Source: a virus. From it: a stretch of DNA of 30,196 bases. The position numbers were made by a program, and so were the translations under genes. The stretch's first letter is position 1, and each line of letters opens with the position of its first letter. Positions 1 through 30,165 of this stretch are shown here, piece after piece. Where the stretch lies: positions 1 through 30,196 of the IMG/VR virus record IMGVR_UViG_3300035523_000050; one strand, 5' to 3'. The notes beneath the pieces are model-generated. The model saw only the letters and a program-made list of their open reading frames with translations, ran no database searches and was not told the DNA's origin.

Positions 1-2
1 TC

Positions 3-179
3 CGCTTCTCCGACCCGCAGCTGAAGGCGGAGGCATTGACCTACCAGGAGGACGATGACGAGCTCGTCACCGACTGCCTGATGACCTTGCTCCTGATGGC
101 CTCGCAGATGAGAGACGAGCGGGGCGACGAGATCGTCGACCTGAGCTACTTGCTGGACGGCGACGAGGAAGACGAATGA
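3..179 (+). CDS. C-terminal end of upstream gene, probably terminase large subunit (partial)
   Basis: An open frame runs in from the left edge and stops with TGA at 177-179. The visible 58 residues are acidic, with DDDDE near the start of the fragment and a DGDEEDE end, and carry no catalytic motif. The stop overlaps a possible ATG at 176 of the next frame, so the gene is translationally close to the portal gene. In tailed phages the gene directly before the portal is usually the terminase large subunit, and acidic tails are common there; the assignment rests on position only. The 5' part lies outside the window. Confidence 0.5.
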   Translation, partial: RFSDPQLKAEALTYQEDDDELVTDCLMTLLLMASQMRDERGDEIVDLSYLLDGDEEDE

Positions 180-208
180 GCGCACAGAGCATACCGAGGA
201 GGGCGATC

Positions 209-1681
209 ATGGCGACGCGGGCGGCGGTGGGGACGTGGAAGCGCGTCTTCCAGGACCCGTCGGGTAAAGGGCAGGCCTACCAGCGCATGCAGGAGTGGTA
301 CGGCTACCTCTGGAGCCTGCACGAGAACTCCGTCTACGACGGCTTCCGGAGCGCAGTCGCCTACCGGGTGAACTACAACCTCTACCGCAACATCCGCGGG
401 CTCTACAACCCGGCAAGACGGCTCGCCGACTTCTATGCCGGGTTCGTCTACCCGGGTCCGCTGGATGACGCCATCCCCATCGAGAGCGACAACGAGGCAT
501 TGCTGCCTGCGATCCAGCAGGTCTGGCAGTGGTCGAACTGGCTGGACGGGAAGTCCGTCTTCGTGCGCTACGGGGCCAGCCTCGGCGACGTGCTGGTCGC
601 CGTGGTGGACGACATGGAGCGCAGGAAGGTCTACCTGGACATCGTGTGGCCCGGTCAGATCGCGGCGCTCGACCTCGACAGCCAGGGGAACGTGAAACGC
701 TACCTGCAGGAGTACGCCGCCGAGGAGAACGGCCGGGAGTACAAGTTCGGGAAGGAGGTCACCCCCGAGGCGATCACCACGTTCCGAGATGACAAGCCGT
801 TCAGCTACCAGCCCGGACAGGAGGCGACCGTTCCCAACCCCTACGGCTTTGTGCCCGCTGCGTGGGCCCGACACCGGAACGTCGGCAGCGACCATGGAGA
901 GCCGGCCATCGCGGCGTGCTACCAGAAGGTGGACGAGCTGAACCAGCTGGCCAGCGCTCTCAACGACCGGGTGATGAAGATCGTGAACAGCCCGCTCATC
1001 GTGGATGCCGAGGGGAAGCTGCCCAACGAGCGGGGGAAGCGGCCGCCAACGGCGGATCAGGCGGCCCCGGAGCGGGACAAGGACAGCCTCGGCCTCTGGC
1101 GGGTTCCGCAGGGCTCCGGGATCCACATGCTGGAGCTTCAGATCGCCGACGCCTACCCGGCTCTGGACAAGCAGATCGCCGAGATCGAGAAGGACCTGCC
1201 GGAGTTGACCGTCCACGCCCAGCTGCGGGAGATGAGCCAGGTCACCGGCCCGGCTGCCGCCAGGATCATGGGCGACGCCGTGAACCGGCTCAGCGACGCC
1301 GCGGCGGGCTACGACCAGCAGAGCGTGAAGCTCTTCCAGATGGCGGTGGCCATCGCCGGGTGGCGGGCCCAGACGGGGGCGTGGGGGAGCAAGGGAGAAC
1401 TCGGCGCCCAGCGCGCCAAGTTCGTCCCGTTCAGCCTCGACAGCTATGAGCGCGGGGATATCGACATGGCAATCGCGCCAAGGCCGCTCATCCGGGAGAC
1501 CGGTCAGGAGTCGGCGCAGACGCTGCTCCTGAAGCAACAACTCGGCGTGTCCCAGAAGCAGATCCTCACGGAGCTTGGCTACTCCGACGAGCAGGTCGCC
1601 GCGATGATCGCCGAGAAGCGGGAAGCGCAGGAGGCGATGGGCTCAAAGCTTCTCGCCGCGTTCGACAGGGGGCAGGCGTGA
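209..1681 (+). CDS. Phage portal protein
   Basis: The portal forms the dodecameric ring at the capsid vertex through which DNA enters and leaves. The frame is open from an ATG at 176, but the ATG at 209 is preceded at 5 nt by a strong GAGGAGGG Shine-Dalgarno site (196-203), so 209 is preferred, giving about 490 residues, a normal portal length. Portal-like features are an N-terminal block with YNLYRNIRGLYNPARRLADF, a central GEPAIAACYQKVDELNQLAS stretch like the clip/wing region of SPP1-type portals, a helical part around GYDQQSVKLFQMAVAIAGWR, and a C-terminal helix-rich end (LGVSQKQILTELGYS). The stop overlaps the GTG of the next gene by GTGA. The position between the probable terminase and a Mu F-like gene supports the call. 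The exact portal family is not decided by eye. Confidence 0.85.
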   Translation: MATRAAVGTWKRVFQDPSGKGQAYQRMQEWYGYLWSLHENSVYDGFRSAVAYRVNYNLYRNIRGLYNPARRLADFYAGFVYPGPLDDAIPIESDNEALLPAIQQVWQWSNWLDGKSVFVRYGASLGDVLVAVVDDMERRKVYLDIVWPGQIAALDLDSQGNVKRYLQEYAAEENGREYKFGKEVTPEAITTFRDDKPFSYQPGQEATVPNPYGFVPAAWARHRNVGSDHGEPAIAACYQKVDELNQLASALNDRVMKIVNSPLIVDAEGKLPNERGKRPPTADQAAPERDKDSLGLWRVPQGSGIHMLELQIADAYPALDKQIAEIEKDLPELTVHAQLREMSQVTGPAAARIMGDAVNRLSDAAAGYDQQSVKLFQMAVAIAGWRAQTGAWGSKGELGAQRAKFVPFSLDSYERGDIDMAIAPRPLIRETGQESAQTLLLKQQLGVSQKQILTELGYSDEQVAAMIAEKREAQEAMGSKLLAAFDRGQA

Positions 1682-2769
1682 CGACGATGAGCCAGGAACG
1701 GGAGGCCCTGATCGCGGCCCATCTGTACATCGTGGAAGCCGAGGCGGGGAAGTTCACGAGGAAGTGCCCTGCCATCTCGTATGACGACCACTACAGCGCC
1801 GGCGCGCTGGGCCTCATGAAGGCGGCCGAGACGTTCGACCCGGGCCGCGGCTACGCCTTCAAGACGATGGCGGGCTCGTGGGTGCGCGGGGAGATCAAGC
1901 ACCAAATCCGCGCCTGGGCGCGCTATCTGCACGGCATCCCGAAGGCGCTGGCCGGCTCCATCCGGGTGGACAGCCTGAACGAACTGAAGCCCATGGGCCT
2001 CACTAGCGACGGGGACACGATGCTGGAAACGCTTCCCGCCTCGGTGGACGTGGCGGTCGAGGCCTTGACCGGTCTTGATGCGGGGGAGATCGCCGCGGCC
2101 GTGGCGGGGCTACCAAGAGATGACGCCGCGGCGGTGCGCGAGGTGATCCTGGGCGGGCTGCCCTGGAAGGAGTTCGGAGCCAGGCGGGGCTGGAAGCCTT
2201 CCGAGACGGAGCGGTTCCAGCGGCGGTTCAAGGCCGAGATCGCCGGCAGGCTACGCGCCTCCCGGCGAGTGGCCGAGATGGTCGCGGGCGGGACGGTGCG
2301 CATCGACCTGGGCAACGGCGGCGCGGCCATCGTGGACGCCATCGATGCCGAGCGGCTTCAGGCCTGGCGATGGCTGCGCGATCCACGCGGCTTCGCTTAC
2401 TCGATGCAGCGGACCGGCCGCCGGCGCGCCAAGGTCCGCCTCCACCATGCCGTGGTGGGCGAAGTGCCGGAGGCCCATCGGGTACTCGTCGTGAACCACA
2501 ACCTCCTGGACTGCCGGCGGGTTAACCTCTCCATCGTCCCGGCCTGGCAGGCCTACCACCAACAGAAGGCGAGGAACCAGACCGGCTACAAGGGCATCAG
2601 ACTGCACGCTATTTCCGGGAAATGGGGAGCAGAAATCACCGTTCACGGCGAGGCGCATTATCTCGGCCTGTTCGGCTCCCCGAAGGCGGCGGCGATGGCC
2701 TACGACCAAGCGGCGAGGGAGCTGCTCGGGGAGTGGGCCGTCCTGAACTTTCCGGCGGCGGCTGCCTGA
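1678..2769 (+). CDS. Sigma-70-like protein fused to HNH/AP2 homing-endonuclease-like domain
   Basis: This 363-residue protein appears to have two halves. Residues about 14-80 resemble sigma-70 region 2 (SAGALGLMKAAETFDPGRGY, then FKTMAGSWVRGEI, matching the family pattern GLxxAxxxFDPxxGxxFxTxAxxWIRxxI). Residues about 143-193 look like a region 4 helix-turn-helix (LPRDDAAAVREVILGGLPWK). Residues 205-290 resemble the HNH fold of AP2-linked homing endonucleases, with His256/257, His274 and Asn283 in the expected order. Residues 300-358 match the AP2 DNA-binding unit (YKGIR, SGKWGAEI, HYLGLF, AAAMAYDQAA). The spacing between His274 and Asn283 seems about three residues shorter than usual, so nuclease activity is uncertain. 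The GTG at 1678 overlaps the portal stop; an in-frame ATG at 1687 is an alternative. The 363-residue frame has no internal stop. It could act as a transcription factor, a homing enzyme, or both. Confidence 0.75.
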   Translation: MTTMSQEREALIAAHLYIVEAEAGKFTRKCPAISYDDHYSAGALGLMKAAETFDPGRGYAFKTMAGSWVRGEIKHQIRAWARYLHGIPKALAGSIRVDSLNELKPMGLTSDGDTMLETLPASVDVAVEALTGLDAGEIAAAVAGLPRDDAAAVREVILGGLPWKEFGARRGWKPSETERFQRRFKAEIAGRLRASRRVAEMVAGGTVRIDLGNGGAAIVDAIDAERLQAWRWLRDPRGFAYSMQRTGRRRAKVRLHHAVVGEVPEAHRVLVVNHNLLDCRRVNLSIVPAWQAYHQQKARNQTGYKGIRLHAISGKWGAEITVHGEAHYLGLFGSPKAAAMAYDQAARELLGEWAVLNFPAAAA

Positions 2770-2770
2770 A

Positions 2771-3790
2771 ATGCCGAGCATCCTGGCTGTCCACGAGGCC
2801 TGCCGGAAGCGCATCCTCGCCGCCGATCAGGAACTGGCCGCCGATCTGGTGAAGGCGTACACCGCCGTCTACGAACGCTTGAAGCGCGACTTCGCCGCGG
2901 CGCTCGCCGACGTGAAGGCTAGTCCCGAGTCAGTCGCCTACCGCGTCTCACGGCTGCGGGCTCTGGAGGCCCAGGTCGTCGAGCGGATCGCCCGGTACGG
3001 CGGGTCAGCCGCGGAGTCCGTTACCCGGGCCCAGGCAGCTGCGGTGGAGTTGTCCGCGGAGGGGACGGCCGAACAACTGACCCTGGCGCTGACGCCGGCG
3101 CCGCCGTCTGTACGAATCGAGAGCCTGTTCACCCGACTTCCTGTCCGCGCCGCCGAGAGCCTGGCCGGCTTTGCCTCGGACGGCTCGCCCTTGGCCGCGC
3201 TCTTCGCCGAGATCGCGCCGGCCGCCGGCCAGGCCGTTCGCGATCGGCTCCTTTCCGGCCTGGCGCTGGGCTTCGGCCCGGAGCGCCTGGCCACAGAGAT
3301 GCGGGACGAACTCGGCGTGCCTCTCTCCCGGTCCCTGCGCATCGCCCGCACTGAGACCTTGCGCGCCTACCGCACATCGGCCGCGGAGTACCTGAAGGAG
3401 AACAGCGAATACGTCGCCGGCTGGTGGTGGAAGGCCTCGGGCGGCTCGCGCTGCTGCCCCGTATGCTGGGCGATGGACGGAACCTTCCACCCCCTGGATG
3501 AACCGTTCGCAAGCCACGTGTGCTGTCGTTGCACCACGATACCGGCCACCAAGTCATGGGCGGAGATGGGCTATCCCGGCATGCCGGACCGGACGTGGAA
3601 GCCGAAGGAGACAGGTGAGGAGGCCTTCGCCAACCTTGACGAGAGCGAGCAGAGGAAGATCCTCGGACCCGGCAAGTACGACCTCTACCGCAAGGGTTCC
3701 ATCCGGCTTTCCGACCTGGTGCGCGAGGGCGAAGACGGACGCTGGGGGCCGTACCGTGTGGAACGGTCGCTGAAGGCGTTCGCAGGTTGA
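2771..3790 (+). CDS. Minor head protein, Mu F-like (SPP1 gp7-like)
   Basis: Proteins of this family are minor capsid components that associate with the portal and take part in head assembly or DNA delivery. The 339 residues have a helical N-terminal half (1-180) and then the Mu F core: RIARTETLRAYRTSAAEY (190-207), GWWWKAS (217-223), and a zinc-binding-like cluster with Cys228, Cys229 and Cys232 followed by His249, Cys251, Cys252 and Cys254. That arrangement, with DGTFHPLDEPF between the Cys pairs, is characteristic of the family. It starts one base after the preceding stop, so it probably shares the portal transcript. It is the last head gene before the accessory insert at 3791-5899. Confidence 0.88.
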   Translation: MPSILAVHEACRKRILAADQELAADLVKAYTAVYERLKRDFAAALADVKASPESVAYRVSRLRALEAQVVERIARYGGSAAESVTRAQAAAVELSAEGTAEQLTLALTPAPPSVRIESLFTRLPVRAAESLAGFASDGSPLAALFAEIAPAAGQAVRDRLLSGLALGFGPERLATEMRDELGVPLSRSLRIARTETLRAYRTSAAEYLKENSEYVAGWWWKASGGSRCCPVCWAMDGTFHPLDEPFASHVCCRCTTIPATKSWAEMGYPGMPDRTWKPKETGEEAFANLDESEQRKILGPGKYDLYRKGSIRLSDLVREGEDGRWGPYRVERSLKAFAG

Positions 3791-4023
3791 CGAGCGCCGC
3801 GATGGCGGGAAGGGCTGAGCGTAGCTAGTCCCCCTCCTTGCTCAACCTACCCGGTTAGCTACACCTTGGGTATACTTGGAACCTGATAGGCGAGATCAGG
3901 CGGTTCCAGGAAACGTCCCGGTCGGAGGGCGACACGCGGACAGAGCAAGAGATGCCAGAACATGAAAACCATCGCGATGCGGAAAGTCCCTCATAGTAAC
4001 GATATCTTGGGTAGACCCCACGT
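3791..4023 (+). other. Non-coding gap before the decayed transposase, with an imperfect hairpin
   Basis: I see no convincing gene here. The clearest structure is an inverted repeat: TGGAACC (3877-3883) plus TGAT (3884-3887) pair with ATCA (3895-3898) and GGTTCCA (3902-3908), with a 3-nt bulge and 7-nt loop. There is no T-run after it, so it is not a typical terminator. The region marks the left part of a non-phage insert between the minor head gene and the HEXXH/scaffold genes. Confidence 0.4.
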
Positions 4024-4850
4024 GTGGCGAAGGAACTGCTCAGTGATGATTAGTGGCAGAAGATCAGGCCGTTACTGCCGTCATATCGGGCTCAGCCGGG
4101 TGGGCGGGGCCGTCCGCCTGTGCCGAACCAAGCGGCTCCGACGGGCATCCTGTTCGCCTTGAAGAGCGGCATCGCGTGAGAGACGCTTCCTCGCGAGATG
4201 AACAGCGGCTCCGAGACGACGTGCTGGCGCGCAGTGCGGGACTGGCACAAGGCCGGCGTATCGACGAGGCTGCACCAGATCCCGTTCTCTCGGTTGGAGA
4301 AGGCCCACGAAGTCCACTGGAGCCGGGCGAGCGTGGATTCGGCGAGCGTGTGGGCCTAGGGAGCGAACCAGGGTGGTGTGGCAGCCGGGCTGTCGGCTCG
4401 TCGCCCACGAATCGGGGCCGTGCGGGAACTATGCGTCACCTAGCGGGAGACAGAACCGGGCTTCCGCTGTTGACCCTGCTCTCGGGAGCCAACGTACCGG
4501 ACGGGACGATGCTGCTTCACGGCATTGATGCCCTCCCGAAGGTTCAGGGCATGCGGGGAAGGCCCCGGTTCCGCCCGGAGAAGGTGCACGCCGACAAGGC
4601 CCGCAACGACAAGAAGCATATCGCCGGGCGGCGGGAGCGTGGGATCGTACCGCGCATCGCTCGTAAGGCTGCCGAGAGCAACAAGATGCAGGGACGCTTC
4701 CGCTGGGCGGTCAAGCGAACGTTCAGTTGGCAGCAAGGCGCACGCCGCTTGCGGTTCCTCGGCGAGCGGCGAGACGACATCTACGAGGCGTTCGTCCAGC
4801 TCGAGAACGCCCTCATCTGTTGGGGTAGGCTCAACGGGTGCTTCTGTTAG
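4024..4850 (+). pseudogene. Degraded IS5-family transposase
   Basis: Translated piecewise, this stretch gives an almost full-length IS5-type DDE transposase. In the frame of 4024 one reads VAKELLSDD, a stop at 4051, then WQKIRPLLPSYR, GILFALKSGIA, a stop at 4177, then ETLPREM, TCWRAVRDWHKAGVSTRLHQ, HWSRASVDSASVWA and a stop at 4357. The match then moves to another frame (somewhere about 4350-4400) and continues with PTNRGRAGTMRHLAGDRTGL, LSGANVPDG, RGRPRFRPEKVHADKA, GIVPRIARKAAES, RFRWAVKRTFSW and ALICWGRLNG, ending at 4850. The DSAS aspartate and the HADKA aspartate are still readable. Three in-frame stops and a frameshift mean it cannot make an active enzyme. No clear terminal inverted repeats or target duplication were found. 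It is a relic of an insertion into a phage head operon. Confidence 0.85.
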
Positions 4851-4889
4851 GGCCTTCCAAGGACTTCCCCCTAACGTTACCCCACCTTG

Positions 4890-5579
4890 TTAGCAATCGA
4901 ACGATCCAATGGTGCAGTGTTCATATGTAGGAGGTGCCAAGTAGCATGTTTTACCCGTCCGTGGGTCGCAACGCGATGCAGGGTCGAGCGGACCGGCACA
5001 ACAACGGTCATTACCGTCTTTGTCGAGTATTCCAGCTTCGTGAGCCTCCATTAGGGCATGCTTGATTTCCTGCGATACAGAGTCTGACGGCTTTGTATAC
5101 AGGTCTTTGTAGGTAATGTCCGGAGCTTCATCGATGAGGCCTTGAAGTGCCGACCGCACTCTCGCCGCATCTTCGGTATGCCTTTCCGGGATTGGAATAC
5201 AGATACTTTGCCGTCGTAAACCGAGCACGGCGTCGAAGACCCCTTCGGGAAGGAGGTCTCGGACCTCTCCCAGTAGATCAAGTAGAGTCATACTAGGGGT
5301 GGCTGCAACAAGGGCGGTACACAGTTCCTCGATGCGGTCGGGCTTTCGGGCGAGCGAATGCTTGCGAAGCAAGCTTATCCGCGGGATTATAGTCTCCGCC
5401 AGGTCTTGAAGCTGCGCCGTAAAGAGGCGCTTGAATGGAATGTCACCAATCAAGGCAATCATTCTGTTAACGCGATTGTAAGTGACCTGAATCCACTCAC
5501 AATCCTCGTCCACCTCGGCATCACAGACGCAGGTGCGTACGTCAAATACAGCTTCGGCGCTTTCCGATGTTTCGTTCAC
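4890..5579 (-). CDS. Uncharacterised protein with Cys-rich C-terminus (accessory gene)
   Basis: A 229-residue frame reads against the phage genes. It starts at a GTG (5579-5577) with a good Shine-Dalgarno site, AAAGGAG, about 9 nt upstream. A weak -10-like TACAAT lies on the minus strand at 5644-5639, without a clear -35. I do not recognise the family. The first 30 residues are acidic with CVC and a further Cys. The middle is helical and leucine-rich (MTLLDLLGEVRDLLPEG and similar). The last 41 residues hold six cysteines (RCC, RC, TC, HC, DC), suggesting a metal site or disulfides. Base composition is visibly less GC-rich than the flanking phage genes, which fits horizontal arrival together with the IS relic. 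No transmembrane segment or signal peptide is seen. It may be a lysogenic-conversion type gene, but that is inference. Confidence 0.6.
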   Translation of the reverse strand: MNETSESAEAVFDVRTCVCDAEVDEDCEWIQVTYNRVNRMIALIGDIPFKRLFTAQLQDLAETIIPRISLLRKHSLARKPDRIEELCTALVAATPSMTLLDLLGEVRDLLPEGVFDAVLGLRRQSICIPIPERHTEDAARVRSALQGLIDEAPDITYKDLYTKPSDSVSQEIKHALMEAHEAGILDKDGNDRCCAGPLDPASRCDPRTGKTCYLAPPTYEHCTIGSFDC

Positions 5580-5899
5580 GGCAAAGCTCCTTTCAAGTAG
5601 CTTGGTGAAGTGTTTGCGGGGCGTTAGCCTTGCGGTCGATTGTAACGCATTGGCCCCAGTGACGTCTAGCGGGTAAGCATGCTGGAGTTGAGTGCTACGG
5701 CGAAAACGGCGAGACGATCAAGGTCGGGTGCGTGCCCGTCTCATGACTCCGCTTCCTCTGGGATGCCTACGGGCATACCCGTGGCCAAAGAGTAAGCAGC
5801 CGCTCACAGGACCTCAGGCTCCCCCGGCCACACGGTCCCGACGTCATCGGCCCGCGGATTCGCCGCGTCTGGCTTGGGGGATGCCGGCATACTCGCGGT
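5580..5899. other. Intergenic region between minus-strand accessory gene and head genes
   Basis: This 320-nt gap separates divergently transcribed genes, so it should hold promoters for both. The right end carries a variant of the repeated promoter-like element (see 5886-5895). A small imperfect hairpin (ATGCC paired with GGCAT, flanked by GGG and CCC) lies about 5759-5780. A short frame ending at 5746 reads VECYGENGETIKVGCVPVS, which looks protein-like and might be the tail of a gene broken by the insertion, but it has no start of its own. The longer + frame at 5692-5946 overlaps the HEXXH gene and looks like a chance frame. Confidence 0.4.
5886..5895 (+). promoter_or_regulatory. Variant GGCATACTCG element, putative promoter -10 for the HEXXH gene
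   Basis: This is a one-base variant of the GGCATAATCG element found four more times. The CATACT hexamer (5888-5893) ends 6 nt before the ATG at 5900. If it is a -10 box, transcription would start at or next to the start codon, giving a leaderless message. No clear -35 is seen. Confidence 0.4.
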
Positions 5900-6487
5900 A
5901 TGAACGAGCCGATGGGCGGGCCGGCCGGCGAGAGCCCCGGCAATAGGACCGAATGCGTCGCCTGCCGGCGCCCGTTCGTCTTCATGGCCACGGCCGTCCC
6001 CGTCTGTTCCGCCTGCTGGGACACCACGCAAGGCCGCAGGGCCCGCGCCGCCATCCAGCTCGCACTGTCCCGCTCTATGGGACCTCCGTCCTCCCCGCCG
6101 CCGGCTCCCACTCGGCCGGATCCAGCCCACCTCAGCCTGGAGGAAGTGCGGGAGTTGTGCGCCCTCTGGCAGAAGCGGCTCAGGTTGCAGGACTGGCTGG
6201 TGGCGGTGCGGATCGTCCCTCACTGGAACATGGACCGGGATAGCGAGGGCCGCTGCGACGCCACCCTCAGCCGCAAGATGGCGATCATCGACATCCTGGA
6301 GCCCGGCCACCTCTATGAGGGCGGCCTCTGGCCCAACGATATGGAGCGCACCCTCGTCCACGAGCTTCTCCATCTGCACTTCGCCCCGTTCGAGGCCGAG
6401 ATCGGAACGCCGGCCGATGCCGCTCAGGAGCAGGCCATCGACCTCATCGCCGGCGCTCTGGTCGATCTCGCCCGATTCGGCCGGTGA
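5900..6487 (+). CDS. Zinc-ribbon/HEXXH metallopeptidase-like protein
   Basis: The 195-residue product has an N-terminal four-Cys zinc ribbon (Cys19, Cys22, Cys36, Cys39), a proline-rich linker (62-76), and a helical C-terminal domain with HELLH at 154-158 and Glu177 in QEQAIDLIAGALV as the likely third zinc ligand. That is the zincin pattern, so peptidase activity is plausible but the substrate is unknown. No Shine-Dalgarno site is at a usable distance: GGGGGA lies about 17-18 nt upstream. The promoter-like element ends just before the ATG. It is followed by a hairpin terminator (6502-6531) and then the scaffold gene, the place where many phages keep the prohead protease. No serine-type prohead protease was recognised in the window. 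It could equally be a regulatory zinc protein. Confidence 0.75.
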   Translation: MNEPMGGPAGESPGNRTECVACRRPFVFMATAVPVCSACWDTTQGRRARAAIQLALSRSMGPPSSPPPAPTRPDPAHLSLEEVRELCALWQKRLRLQDWLVAVRIVPHWNMDRDSEGRCDATLSRKMAIIDILEPGHLYEGGLWPNDMERTLVHELLHLHFAPFEAEIGTPADAAQEQAIDLIAGALVDLARFGR

Positions 6488-6501
6488 GGCCAAAACAGGA
6501 G

Positions 6502-6531
6502 CAGGGCCGCCAAATAACCTGGGCGGCCCTG
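6502..6531 (+). terminator. Hairpin terminator after the HEXXH gene
   Basis: A perfect 10-bp stem, CAGGGCCGCC (6502-6511) with GGCGGCCCTG (6522-6531), encloses a 10-nt loop 15 nt after the stop at 6487. The T-tract is weak (ACTCGTT). It separates the HEXXH gene from the scaffold gene, whose own promoter-like element follows at 6642. Confidence 0.7.
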
Positions 6532-6641
6532 ACTCGTTCCAGAAGCTTGTCCTCCGCGTACACGAGCATTGTACCCCACGGATGTCCGCCAGTCAATCCC
6601 CTCTAGACTACTTTTTTCGCGTTCTCCCCACCTGCGCGGCC

Positions 6642-6651
6642 GGCATAATCG
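6642..6651 (+). promoter_or_regulatory. GGCATAATCG element upstream of scaffold gene
   Basis: An exact copy of the repeated element, embedded in GCCG-GCATAAT-CGGC so that 4-bp arms are inverted repeats. The CATAAT hexamer (6644-6649) ends 25 nt before the scaffold ATG, leaving room for the AGGAGG site at 6663-6668. It follows a terminator hairpin, as expected for the start of a new transcript. No conserved -35 was found. Confidence 0.55.
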
Positions 6652-6674
6652 GCACGTTTCCCAGGAGGATACGC

Positions 6675-7307
6675 ATGTTCACACGCACATTCAGCCGCCT
6701 GCCCTTCACCGTCTTTGCGCCGGAGACGGGCGGCGGTTCCGGCGGAGGCGGCGGGCAGGACCCGGCCGCTTCCCTTAAGCCCCAGGCGGGCGACAAAGAC
6801 GGCGAGCCAGGCGCTCCCGACAACCCAGCCGCTGCCCAGGAGGCCGCGGACGAGAAAGACCCCGCGAAGCGACTCGAGGCCATCCAGAAGGAACTGGAGA
6901 CCACGCGCAAGGAGGCGGCCAACTACCGCACCAAGCTGCGCAAGCTGGAGGAATCGGCCCAGGCGGCCGACGAGGCCAAGCTCGCGGAACAGCAGCAGTG
7001 GAAGGAACTCGCCGAGAAGCGGGAGGCCCGCATCAAGGAGCTTGAGCCGCTCCAGGATCGCGTCTCCGCTTACGAGAAGCGCGAAACCGAGCGCATCGCC
7101 GCATCGATCAAGGACTGGCCCGAGAACCTCAGGAAGCTCGTGGAACGCGCTTCCAGCCTTGAGGAGAAGCAGGCCGCCCTGCAGGACCTGAAGCCCACCG
7201 TGGACGCGCTGGCCGGCAAGGCCGCCGCCCCCGGGTCCGGCCCGGGTCCGAAGGCGTCCGGTGACTCGAAGACGGCCATCACATCTTCCCGGCCGGTCCG
7301 TCTGTAA
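6675..7307 (+). CDS. Capsid scaffolding protein
   Basis: The scaffold guides assembly of the capsid shell and is removed before DNA packaging. The ATG at 6675 has an AGGAGG site 6 nt upstream; the open frame extends further upstream to 6315 but overlaps the HEXXH gene and a terminator, so 6675 is the real start (210 residues). The composition is typical: a Gly/Pro/Ala-rich N-terminal part with a GGGSGGGGG run, a long charged coiled coil (about 60-185, KELETTRKEAANYRTKLRKL and similar), then a Gly/Pro-rich segment and a basic C-terminus ending RPVRL. Basic ends are common in scaffolds that bind the coat protein. The position, two genes before the major capsid protein, agrees. Confidence 0.82.
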   Translation: MFTRTFSRLPFTVFAPETGGGSGGGGGQDPAASLKPQAGDKDGEPGAPDNPAAAQEAADEKDPAKRLEAIQKELETTRKEAANYRTKLRKLEESAQAADEAKLAEQQQWKELAEKREARIKELEPLQDRVSAYEKRETERIAASIKDWPENLRKLVERASSLEEKQAALQDLKPTVDALAGKAAAPGSGPGPKASGDSKTAITSSRPVRL

Positions 7308-7340
7308 CGCTCACTTTGACACAGCAAGGGGAACCAACCC

Positions 7341-7748
7341 ATGGCAGATATTGCAGTCACCGCCGCCGCCGTGGCCCCGGCGCGTGCGAAGTTCGAGAGC
7401 TTCTCGTTCATCGCCGCCGCCGCCATCACGAAGGGCGCCGCGGTCTACATCACGGCCGCCGGCAAGGTTGACAACGCCGACGCCTCGCTCGCCGCCTCCG
7501 CCGGCGCCATCGGCATCGCGCTGTCTTCCGTTGGCGCCGGCCAGGCCGTCGAGGTCCTGACGCGCGGCCCGGTCGCAGGTTACAACCTCACCGCCCAGGC
7601 GTACGGGGCGACCATCTATCTCTCGGATACCGATTCCGGCATCCTCGCCGACGCCGCTGGAACCACCAGCAAAAAGGTCGGCATCGTCCTGCCCACGTCG
7701 GACAACGACCTCACCAAGGTCCTGTTCGTCTGCCCGGCGCTGGTCTAG
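7341..7748 (+). CDS. Capsid decoration protein (DUF2190-like)
   Basis: The 135-residue protein is rich in Ala, Gly, Val and Thr and built of short beta-like stretches: AAITKGAAVYITAAGKVDNA, GAIGIALSSVGAGQAVEVLT, ATIYLSD and KVGIVLP. This pattern (a value that becomes active, a GIAL segment, an EVLT/GPV segment) is typical of small capsid-stabilising or head-fibre proteins of the DUF2190 type, which sit on the outer shell. The gene lies directly between scaffold and major capsid genes with its own Shine-Dalgarno site (AAGGGGA), as in many siphoviruses. The family assignment is by pattern recognition. Confidence 0.72.
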   Translation: MADIAVTAAAVAPARAKFESFSFIAAAAITKGAAVYITAAGKVDNADASLAASAGAIGIALSSVGAGQAVEVLTRGPVAGYNLTAQAYGATIYLSDTDSGILADAAGTTSKKVGIVLPTSDNDLTKVLFVCPALV

Positions 7749-7780
7749 GCGCAGGGACCTTCAAGAGGAGCTAACAAGCT

Positions 7781-8851
7781 ATGAGCACCGTCTACGGACT
7801 CCTGAACGTCTCCGACCTGAGCACCATCTCGCAGGTTGGACAGCAGGAGATCTACACCGCGGCGTCCGGGATCCTCGCGGCGCATGACGCGGAACTGAAC
7901 CGCGCGCTGGGCCTGTTCGTCCAGCCGCAGACCACGACCCTCTACAACGAGATCTACAAGCTGATCTCGGGCGGGAAGATGCAGAAGGTCAACGAGTACG
8001 GGCAGCCGATGGCCGTGAAGGCGTCGGGGCAGTACAACGTGTCCTACCCCATCCACGACTTCCAGGATGCCATCGCGGTGACCCGGGTGACCCGCGCCAA
8101 GATGACTCTGCGCGAATATCAGCGCCATCTCGACAACATCAACGACCGGCACATCAACGCCATCCGCTTTGAGGTGCTGCGCGCCCTTCTGAACAAGACC
8201 AACCAGACATGGAAGGATCCGCAGTTCGGAGATCTGACCTTGCGGCGGTTGGCCAACGGTGACGGAACCGTCTTCCCGCCGGTTGTAGGTAGCGAGGCCG
8301 GGGCCGAGGACACGCACTACCTGGTCAGCGGCTACGTCACCGCCAACATCTCGGACGTGAACAACCCGTTCGTCACCCTGCGCGCCGAGCTCATCGAGCA
8401 CGGCCAGGGCGATATGGTCGCGTTCATCAATGCGGCCGAGACGACTAAGATCTCCGCGCTCACCGCGTTCGTCGAGGCCCCCGACCCGTTCATCCGGGCC
8501 GGTTCGTCCAATGACGCCATCGTCCAGCAGCTCGCAAACGCCCCGGGGACGTATCTCGGCCGCGTGAAGGGCTCGGGCGGCGCCGGCTGTCACGTGTTCG
8601 AGTGGAACCAGGTCCCGGCCGCTTACATCCTCGCGCTGAACCTTGCGCTGGATCAGCCGCTGAAGAAGCGCGTCGATCCGGAAACCGAGCTGCAGGGCTA
8701 CGGCCTGATCCCCGGCGCCAACCCGCAGTACCCGCTGCAGGAAGCCATCTACGGCGAGCGCTGCGGCTATGCCGTGGCCGGCCGCCTGTCCGCCGCCGTC
8801 ATGTTCCTGGACGCCGGCGGCGTCTACAACACCCCGGCCGCGTTCGCCTAA
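7781..8851 (+). CDS. Major capsid protein
   Basis: This is the most likely shell protein: 356 residues, preceded by a strong AGAGGAG site, placed after scaffold and decoration genes and before the connector genes. The N-terminal part is helical (IYTAASGILAAHDAELNRAL); the middle contains a YPIHDFQDAIAVTR segment and a long helix (TLREYQRHLDNINDRHINAI followed by RFEVLRALLNKT), as in HK97-fold capsid proteins with a spine helix. The end is RCGYAVAGRLSAAVMFLD, where a basic Gly-containing segment normally closes the P-domain. No separate cleavable delta domain is evident, consistent with a distinct scaffold gene. A hairpin terminator follows at 8881-8906. Confidence 0.85.
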   Translation: MSTVYGLLNVSDLSTISQVGQQEIYTAASGILAAHDAELNRALGLFVQPQTTTLYNEIYKLISGGKMQKVNEYGQPMAVKASGQYNVSYPIHDFQDAIAVTRVTRAKMTLREYQRHLDNINDRHINAIRFEVLRALLNKTNQTWKDPQFGDLTLRRLANGDGTVFPPVVGSEAGAEDTHYLVSGYVTANISDVNNPFVTLRAELIEHGQGDMVAFINAAETTKISALTAFVEAPDPFIRAGSSNDAIVQQLANAPGTYLGRVKGSGGAGCHVFEWNQVPAAYILALNLALDQPLKKRVDPETELQGYGLIPGANPQYPLQEAIYGERCGYAVAGRLSAAVMFLDAGGVYNTPAAFA

Positions 8852-8880
8852 CCAGGCGGACCCGGTCACGTGATGCATTG

Positions 8881-8906
8881 AGCCTCCGCCCGCTTGGGCG
8901 GGGGCT
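8881..8906 (+). terminator. Hairpin terminator after major capsid gene
   Basis: AGCCTCCGCCC (8881-8891) pairs with GGGCGGGGGCT (8896-8906) around a GCTT loop, with one U-G pair, then TCGTGC. It lies 29 nt after the capsid stop. It may limit downstream expression so that capsid protein is made in excess; the T-tract is poor, so partial read-through is likely. Confidence 0.65.
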
Positions 8907-8932
8907 TCGTGCAACGGCAAGGAGAGACACCC

Positions 8933-9340
8933 ATGGCAACCAAAGAGGCGATCGGGATCATGCGGGAGAAGGTGCACGCGCGCCTGGCCGCCGCCTCGGC
9001 CGAGCTGATGGCACGGCACGGCCTCACCCCATCGCAGTACGTGAACCTGAGCAAGGATCCGGACATCGCCACCGTTCGCACCCTGGAGGCCATCGCCGGC
9101 GACCTGGAGGCCGTTAACGCGGCGAACAGTGAGGTGGCCGAGGCGGAACCTGACGAGAAGACCGGTCTCCTGGGCGCGGTGCTCGACGGGAACGCCGATA
9201 CCGTGAAGGCGCGCATCGCCGAGGTTGAGAGCGTGGACGACCTGCGCGCCATCCACGCGATCGAGACGGCGCGCGGGGCCAAGGCCCGCAAGACGGTGCT
9301 CGCTGCCGTCGAGGCCCGCATCGCCGCCCTGGAGGGATAA
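8933..9340 (+). CDS. Hypothetical protein in head-tail connector region
   Basis: A 135-residue, mostly helical and acidic protein. The ATG at 8933 is preceded by AAGGAG (8919-8924) at 8 nt; the open frame runs further upstream but through the capsid terminator, so the later start is chosen. Visible features are a REKVHARLAAASAELMARHG helix, TPSQYVNLSKDPDIATVRTL, and a C-terminal repeat-like helical section (AEVESVDDLRAIHAIETARG, KARKTVLAAVEARIAALEG). I do not recognise the family. Placement directly after the capsid gene suggests a head-completion or packaging accessory role, or a regulatory small protein. Confidence 0.7.
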   Translation: MATKEAIGIMREKVHARLAAASAELMARHGLTPSQYVNLSKDPDIATVRTLEAIAGDLEAVNAANSEVAEAEPDEKTGLLGAVLDGNADTVKARIAEVESVDDLRAIHAIETARGAKARKTVLAAVEARIAALEG

Positions 9341-29279: not shown

Positions 29280-29641
29280 CCCCCTCTGTGCAGAGCCCGG
29301 CTCCTCGAAACCGCAAGCTCCAGCTCGCCAAACTCGGCGGCGTGGCCATCGCGGCCGCCGGCGTCGGCGGCGTCATCTGGCCGGACCGGGCCGAGTACCT
29401 GATGCGCCTGGCGACAGCGATCTCCGTCCTGTTCGGCGCGATCTCGGCCGCTATGGCCTACGAGGACGGGCAGCAGGCGCACGCCGCGGCCAGCGTGCAG
29501 ATCGCGGCCTCGCAAACGGCCTCCGTTGGGGCAGGACCGGCCCAGGAGTGCGACGCAGCCGTCCCGCTGGCAACCAGCCACGAGGCAGACGAGGCCGCGC
29601 CTACGGGCGATTCTGGGGCAAACGGCGGCACGGCGCAATGA
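29276..29641 (+). CDS. Two-helix membrane protein, probable holin
   Basis: The ATG at 29276 overlaps the endolysin stop. The 121-residue product has a basic start (PRNRKLQLAK), two hydrophobic helices (LGGVAIAAAGVGGVIW at about 20-35, and LATAISVLFGAISAAMAY at about 45-62) and then a long hydrophilic Ala/Ser/Glu-rich tail. Two membrane helices next to an endolysin gene is the plan of class II holins, although the long acidic tail is unusual. Which of this and the XhlA-like protein is the true holin cannot be told from sequence. Its stop overlaps the next ATG. Confidence 0.6.
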   Translation: MTPSVQSPAPRNRKLQLAKLGGVAIAAAGVGGVIWPDRAEYLMRLATAISVLFGAISAAMAYEDGQQAHAAASVQIAASQTASVGAGPAQECDAAVPLATSHEADEAAPTGDSGANGGTAQ

Positions 29642-30165
29642 TCGACAGCGAGCCATGGTTTCCGATGGCTCGCTGGCTCGCGCGCCGGTTCCGCCCGGCG
29701 GGGTTGCTGGAGACGGGTGACCTGGAGGCCATCGGGATGATGGCGGCGCACGTCGCCTGTCAGACGTATGACCCGACGCGCGCGCAGCTGAAAACATGGA
29801 TCACCAACCGCGTGATCTGGGCCGTCAGGGACGCGATCCGCTCCGAGCTGCGAATGCGGAGGGAATCCTACGGCTCTCCCACGTCGCCCGATCACGCCAT
29901 CAGCCTCGAGGCGCTGATAGACGGCGATGTGGTTGATCGTTCGCCCGGGCCCGACGCGCGGGCAATCAGTTCGGCAACCGTGCGATGGGCTCTGGGGGCG
30001 GTGACCGCCAGGCAGCGCGAGGTGCTGGGTCCGTGGTTGGGCGGGGAGTCGTTGTCGTGCATCGCCAGCCGCCTCGGGATAACCGAGAGCGGGGCGATCT
30101 ATCTGGAGCGGGCCGCGATCGGGCGGCTGAAGCGGAACGGGGCAGAGGAGGCCCTACGAGGATGA
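29638..30165 (+). CDS. Sigma-70 family RNA polymerase sigma factor (short)
   Basis: The ATG at 29638 overlaps the previous stop (ATGA); the frame is open upstream, but only through the endolysin and holin genes. The 175-residue protein has a region 2-like N-terminal half (about 28-70, DLEAIGMMAAHVACQTYDPT, LKTWITNRVIWAVRDAIRSE) and a clear region 4 (about 116-168, VTARQREVLGPWLGGESLSC, IASRLGITESGAIYLERAAI). The two domains and ~175-residue length suit an ECF-like or phage late sigma factor. It lies at the end of the lysis cassette and could direct transcription of late genes or replace a phage activator. The N-terminal region 2 match is weaker than region 4. The stop overlaps the next ATG. 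Confidence 0.75.
   Translation: MIDSEPWFPMARWLARRFRPAGLLETGDLEAIGMMAAHVACQTYDPTRAQLKTWITNRVIWAVRDAIRSELRMRRESYGSPTSPDHAISLEALIDGDVVDRSPGPDARAISSATVRWALGAVTARQREVLGPWLGGESLSCIASRLGITESGAIYLERAAIGRLKRNGAEEALRG

Follow-up and report, generated by a model that had tools for sequence, protein, structure and literature searches.

A single open reading frame between the portal and minor head genes of a virus of bacteria appears to encode a two-domain sigma-70-like protein, with region 2 followed by a region-4-like helix-turn-helix (HTH), joined to an HNH-AP2 unit whose catalytic residues have been lost. Our preferred explanation, held with moderate confidence, is that a domesticated, nuclease-dead HNH-AP2 module provides a sigma-like regulator of the phage with additional site recognition. 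The window, i.e., the whole stretch of DNA analysed, is a virus record of 30,196 bases. The following features were distinguished in it:

176-1681 (+), portal protein gene, upstream of the fusion (PHROG 104 portal, E 0.0011; portal-like relatives).
1678-2769 (+), gene of the sigma-like / predicted nuclease-dead HNH-AP2 fusion (single open frame, 363 aa; the same fusion in a second record, L002).
1717-1914 (+), sigma-70 region 2, residues 14-79 (Pfam, PHROG, PDB, hhalign).
2071-2271 (+), putative sigma region-4-like HTH, residues 132-198 (predicted fold only).
2278-2766 (+), complete HNH-AP2 unit, residues 201-363 (end-to-end alignment with free-standing relatives).
2298-2664 (+), tract exchanged in comparison with L002, codons 207-329 (36% mismatches vs. 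7% outside).
2449-2541 (+), HNH core, residues 258-288 (weak Pfam HNH_3; I-HmuI via profile).
2485-2490 (+), lost catalytic pair (profile alignment).
2551-2553 (+), lost catalytic residue (profile alignment).
2581-2730 (+), AP2 domain, residues 302-351 (Pfam PF00847; PDB WRI1, E 2.3e-10).
2771-3790 (+), minor head gene, Mu F / SPP1 gp7-like, downstream of the fusion (Pfam PF04233, E 2.5e-14; TIGR01641, E 5.1e-13).

The frame at 1678-2769 had no internal stop. Its GTG start shares 4 nt (GTGA) with the end of the portal gene, and a single nucleotide separates its own end from the minor head gene. The record IMGVR_UViG_3300035523_000098 (L002) carried the fusion in frame at the same portal-minor head position. 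Its copy lacked three codons near the start and had no ATG there, so GTG is the conserved start. An earlier reading of the letters without database searches (the sequence-only reading) had proposed sigma-like and HNH-AP2 parts in one open frame between the portal and minor head genes; Pfam, PHROGs, and the in-frame copy in L002 confirmed the composition, and L002 repeated the placement. The same reading had allowed that the halves might be separate genes in relatives, with the junction due to a sequencing error. The sole close relative found was fused in frame, and the differences near its junction were mostly synonymous; on these grounds, we rejected the idea that two genes had merely been joined by a frameshift or an error of sequencing. 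Since L002 repeats the fusion in frame at the same place, a sequencing or assembly artefact is an unlikely source of it. A promoter and terminator scan of positions 1-9000 revealed nothing useful near the fusion gene, and the sole PADLOC match was MzaA, through sigma region 2.

The N-terminal half contained region 2 of the sigma-70 family (core binding, -10 element). Pfam Sigma70_r2 (PF04542) matched residues 14-79 with E 9.5e-9 and 35.4 bits against a cut-off of 24, and PHROGs phrog_351 (sigma factor) matched residues 6-86 with E 9.4e-17. PDB sequence matches of the first part of the protein were RpoD (E 6.4e-7), FliA, and RpoS. The NCBIfam sigma70-ECF model spanned residues 7-188 with 39.8 bits, under its cut-off of 42.9. 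The sigma-like character proposed earlier for residues 1-200 thus withstood the profile search, through region 2. For the region-4-like HTH, which had been proposed as well, the outcome was divided: Pfam and NCBIfam profiles gave no match on residues 95-206 alone, but the predicted fold fitted SigR region 4. Residues 120-206 modelled alone (AlphaFold2, two sequences) formed a helical domain with a mean pLDDT of 75.8. Sigma chains occupied 43 of the best 50 Foldseek rows listed for this model, with a best E of 0.17 and none below 0.001. The top VIA match was SigR region 4 (65/65 residues, rmsd 1.9) with Z 7.2, a value that can, according to the program's warning, reflect a common arrangement. 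It is by this predicted fold that residues 132-198 may be called region-4-like. ECF-type sigma factors, such as SigH and SigR, consist of region 2 and region 4 and are not known to have a region 3. They gave the best structural matches of the sigma type, and they differ from the fusion in two respects: region 2 of the fusion is nearer in sequence to SigF/FliA types, and the fusion has an extra C-terminal putative DNA-binding unit. An hhalign comparison with two SigF/SigK-type proteins gave 97.8%, with residues 6-150 only aligned.

Phages and plasmids encode free-standing HNH-AP2 proteins, 164-171 residues long, that aligned over their full length with residues 201-363. The in-frame ATG at 2278 is the point where these proteins start, and it was kept in L002. 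An HNH fold was followed by AP2, as in HNH-AP2 homing endonucleases. Pfam HNH_3 was weak (residues 258-288, 16.2 bits vs. a cut-off of 24.8); PHROGs phrog_99 (HNH endonuclease) matched residues 262-357 of the same protein with E 9.5e-18, and a profile of ten HNH parts retrieved I-HmuI (PDB 1u3e) with E 2.2e-6. With the full protein, Pfam AP2 (PF00847) gave E 1.6e-7 and 31.9 bits, just below the cut-off of 33.3, and in L002 it scored 36.1 bits, above the cut-off. The sequence-only reading had advised searching the second half by itself, which brought AP2 to 33.3 bits. PDB sequence matches of the last part were plant AP2 factors; the unit is related to I-HmuI and to the AP2 domains of AtERF1 and WRI1. 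The full-length structure model was poor (pLDDT 39), and its PDB structure matches, AtERF1 first and then SigH, were suggestive only, none having E <= 0.001. In this low-confidence model, AP2 comprised strands at 306-332 and a helix at 335-349.

The catalytic residues of I-HmuI are described as D74, H75, and N96 (PMC12724721). In the profile alignment, the V-D-H stretch holds D74 and H75; we obtained these residue numbers, and that of N96, by counting along the alignment. The pair D74-H75 corresponded to L270-V271 in the window and to L-A in L002, and N96 corresponded to A292 in the window and to A in L002, so that neither copy had the catalytic D, H, and N of an HNH-AP2 homing endonuclease. 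Because all three catalytic positions are substituted, the nuclease of the fusion protein is, judged by its sequence, dead. In a non-random sample of 23 relatives (22 picked from phage and plasmid matches, and the protein of record L003), the triad was intact in 19 if D or N is accepted at 270; position 270 was D in 20 and N in one, position 271 was H in 21, and position 292 was N in 19. The four without a full triad were L025, L037, L003, and L043. Cys279 was not diagnostic: L022 carries it with D and H intact. A shortened spacing before Asn283 had earlier been taken as a hint that cutting may have been lost and binding kept. The loss of cutting is well supported through substitution of all three catalytic positions, and the spacing was ruled out as its reason by the gapless alignment of the HNH motif with relatives. 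Since both diverged alleles are dead, the nuclease loss is older than their divergence, unless it arose twice. Among phage proteins, L025 1516-2289 and L037 743-1528 had AP2 and no HNH found by Pfam, and one of the two was annotated "putative transcription factor"; they are possibly another homing endonuclease gene (HEG) turned regulator.

Between the window and L002, the tract at 2298-2664 gave a log-likelihood gain of 91.7, compared with at most 9.5 in 20 shuffles that were scanned at a coarser step than the real data. The dS values were 0.198 for the portal, 0.237 for the sigma half, and 0.231 for the minor head gene, and 2.1 (saturated) for residues 208-296; the last 35 residues were identical as protein with a dS of 0.25. 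Ordinary divergence of the HNH-AP2 core was ruled out by flanks with a dS of 0.2-0.24 beside a saturated core. Because of the same difference, replacement of the core through recombination with a distant allele is most likely. Residues 201-363 (164 codons) contained no stops, frameshifts, or indels in this comparison. In residues 208-328, pS was 0.65 vs. a pN of 0.26 (Fisher p 3e-11). The dN/dS ratio was 0.06 for the sigma half and 0.15 for HNH residues 208-296, the latter being rough since dS is saturated. On these estimates, made from two sequences by a simple counting method with saturated dS, the HNH-AP2 half is still under selection as a protein in the two sequences. Both sequences combine a dead nuclease with a constrained protein, as a domesticated HEG does. 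In AtERF1, DNA contacts are made by the AP2 sheet. In the low-confidence model, the exchanged tract takes in the HNH together with the larger part of the AP2 sheet and leaves out the AP2 helix. Because it covers most of the part that contacts DNA in AtERF1, the proteins of the window and L002 may read different DNA sites.

In the distant relative L009, the portal (27% identical to that of the window) overlapped the minor head gene (34% identity of the proteins) by 8 nt, and L010 had the same layout as far as its contig reaches. A different minor capsid gene directly followed the portal in L007 and L008; the L008 protein is unlike that of the window and matches Pfam Phage_min_cap2. Small ORFs lay 3' of the portal in L006 and L012, and the contig of L011 ended inside the portal. 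None of these seven records (L006-L012) contained a match to the fusion protein; of the nine records searched, only L002 and L003 matched, L003 encoding an HNH-AP2 protein that lacks a sigma part. Because portal and minor head overlap directly in L009, the whole fusion gene is, on this sequence comparison, extra in the window. The earlier suggestion of a mobile domain captured by a phage regulator fits these data as one possibility: because L009 is without the whole gene, the comparison does not distinguish between a resident regulator that captured HNH-AP2 and a fusion that arrived already assembled. A survey for lone halves, also suggested earlier, found the second half alone, in L003 and in the free-standing HNH-AP2 proteins.

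When viral contigs were searched with a DNA pattern, the whole fusion protein, its sigma half, and the HNH halves of the window and L002, the only further fusion was that of L002, the scans by peptide pattern reaching close relatives only. Weak scans of genome contigs for the fusion and by the portal alignment, with two and one short peptide patterns, gave no match. Among phage records, 427 matched, and among plasmid records 65; in none of them did a single place span 80% of the fusion protein. The collections searched held two fusion sequences, both in IMG/VR virus records. We found no literature report of a sigma factor fused to a homing endonuclease and AP2 in a phage; sigma factors and an HNH fusion appear separately in the account of PMC7824862. 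Two records labelled as phage, L016 (MT839343) and L017 (MT837028), contained ORFs that by eye resemble a bacterial chromosome (tRNA-synthetase-like, SigF-operon-like, and SigK-like).

Beyond the observed anatomy, active-site loss, exchange, and constraint, we infer how the fusion would work from the known cases of WhiA, CapR, plant AP2 factors, and I-TevI. With its sigma-like half the fusion protein would contact host RNA polymerase, and with the dead HNH-AP2 half it would bind a specific DNA site; it would thereby direct or hold the polymerase at chosen phage promoters. As a product of the portal-minor head operon, it would most likely tune late or head-gene transcription, and the recombination between phages that replaced the DNA-recognition core, seen as sequence, would change the recognised site. 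Plant AP2/ERF factors are not known to have an HNH or a sigma part. Their AP2 is described as of HEG origin and as controlling transcription without cutting (PMC10448857); they share with the fusion an HEG-derived AP2 in a probable role in transcription control and are eukaryotic, unlike the phage fusion. Phage homing endonucleases of the HNH-AP2 (IPA-HNH) type have HNH and then AP2 (PMC10448857). The 163-residue C-terminal unit of the fusion aligns end to end with their free-standing members, and the fusion differs in the added sigma-like protein and in being without catalytic D, H, and N. WhiA (DUF199) is described as a degenerate homing endonuclease joined to an HTH, with the catalytic residues gone (PMC3781837), and thus resembles the fusion, itself a putative transcription regulator with a putative HTH, in uniting a dead homing endonuclease and an HTH in one protein. 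WhiA is cellular and has LAGLIDADG at the N terminus and one HTH, whereas the fusion is phage-borne and has a C-terminal HNH-AP2 and a partner including sigma region 2; no LAGLIDADG was found in it with Pfam, PHROGs, or the best 25 of 43 NCBIfam matches. CapR, a domesticated phage HEG module, represses the capsid operon of ICP1 (PMC10448857); it controls head genes, and the fusion sits in a head operon. It differs in being T5orf172-derived, in residing in a satellite, and in having no sigma part in the PMC10448857 account. I-TevI is described as acting as a repressor (PMC2988022).

These data suggest that a selfish gene has been converted into a regulator. If the domestication explanation is right, a selfish DNA-cutting gene has been caught becoming part of a phage transcription machine, at a stage when the two halves can still be read and two related phages visibly differ by a swap of the DNA-reading core; the conversion of a homing endonuclease into a transcription factor and the gain of specificity by sigma factors via an extra DNA-binding head would both become testable. 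A bolder and tentative proposal is a phage sigma factor to which a third head for DNA recognition, itself interchangeable, has been added: a dead HNH-AP2 cassette, swapped between phages by recombination, would re-aim the polymerase-binding body to new promoters. If true, a virus would have repeated independently the route from homing endonuclease to plant AP2 transcription factor.

The lost active site and the empty arrangement in L009 would also be explained if a chance fusion had joined an HEG to a sigma-like gene, the HEG now being dead and decaying with no new function, and HEGs are described as often degenerating and adjoining essential genes (PMC10448857). We consider this unlikely: the 164 codons are intact though the cores differ at 36% of bases, and the excess of pS over pN in residues 208-328 stands against it. 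Decaying parasites are not expected to give dead alleles so diverged yet constrained, and this reading is already weakened by the finding that both alleles are so. Alternatively, the frame may yield two proteins, the full fusion and an HNH-AP2 repressor from ATG 2278, the fusion being partly a by-product. This is in line with the position of that ATG at the start point of the free-standing proteins and its retention in L002; a clear ribosome-binding site was not seen by eye 5' of 2278, and we assign the reading a low probability.

Polymerase-binding proteins are common in phages, and the sigma half is 96-97% identical between both phages, as could be expected of an anti-host factor that acts by binding host RNA polymerase and blocking or redirecting it, with AP2 merely a DNA anchor. 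Such a factor would, however, leave the selected and exchanged DNA-recognition core unexplained, and we regard it as quite improbable. Modular DNA-binding domains occur in HEGs, and the HNH fold is still recognisable, but an active homing enzyme locating its target through the sigma-like half is very hard to reconcile with the loss of D74, H75, and N96 in both phages; the alternative alignment of the sequence-only reading puts His at 274, which is Arg in L002.

A free-standing smaller sigma-70-like gene of 175 aa was located at 29638-30165 (+) of the window (Pfam region 2, 26 bits with a cut-off of 24; sigma70-ECF, 39.4 bits). It showed no useful similarity to the fused sigma half. A 95% identical copy lies at the end of L048, another contig of metagenome 3300035523, and neither the fusion protein nor the portal matched anything in the L048 record. 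This gene could be the real late regulator, which counts against the domestication explanation.

An IS5 family transposase gene was present at 4053-4850 (+); along its entire length it was 41% identical to copies on Lichenicola plasmids, and it had no Pfam match. The segment 3776-5869 that holds it had no blastn match to L002. Differing ORFs, both without a Pfam match, occupied the same interval in the two records (4890-5579 (-) in the window and 3891-4679 (-) in L002). The interval between the minor head gene and the next shared region is, by this comparison of the two records, a variable spot.
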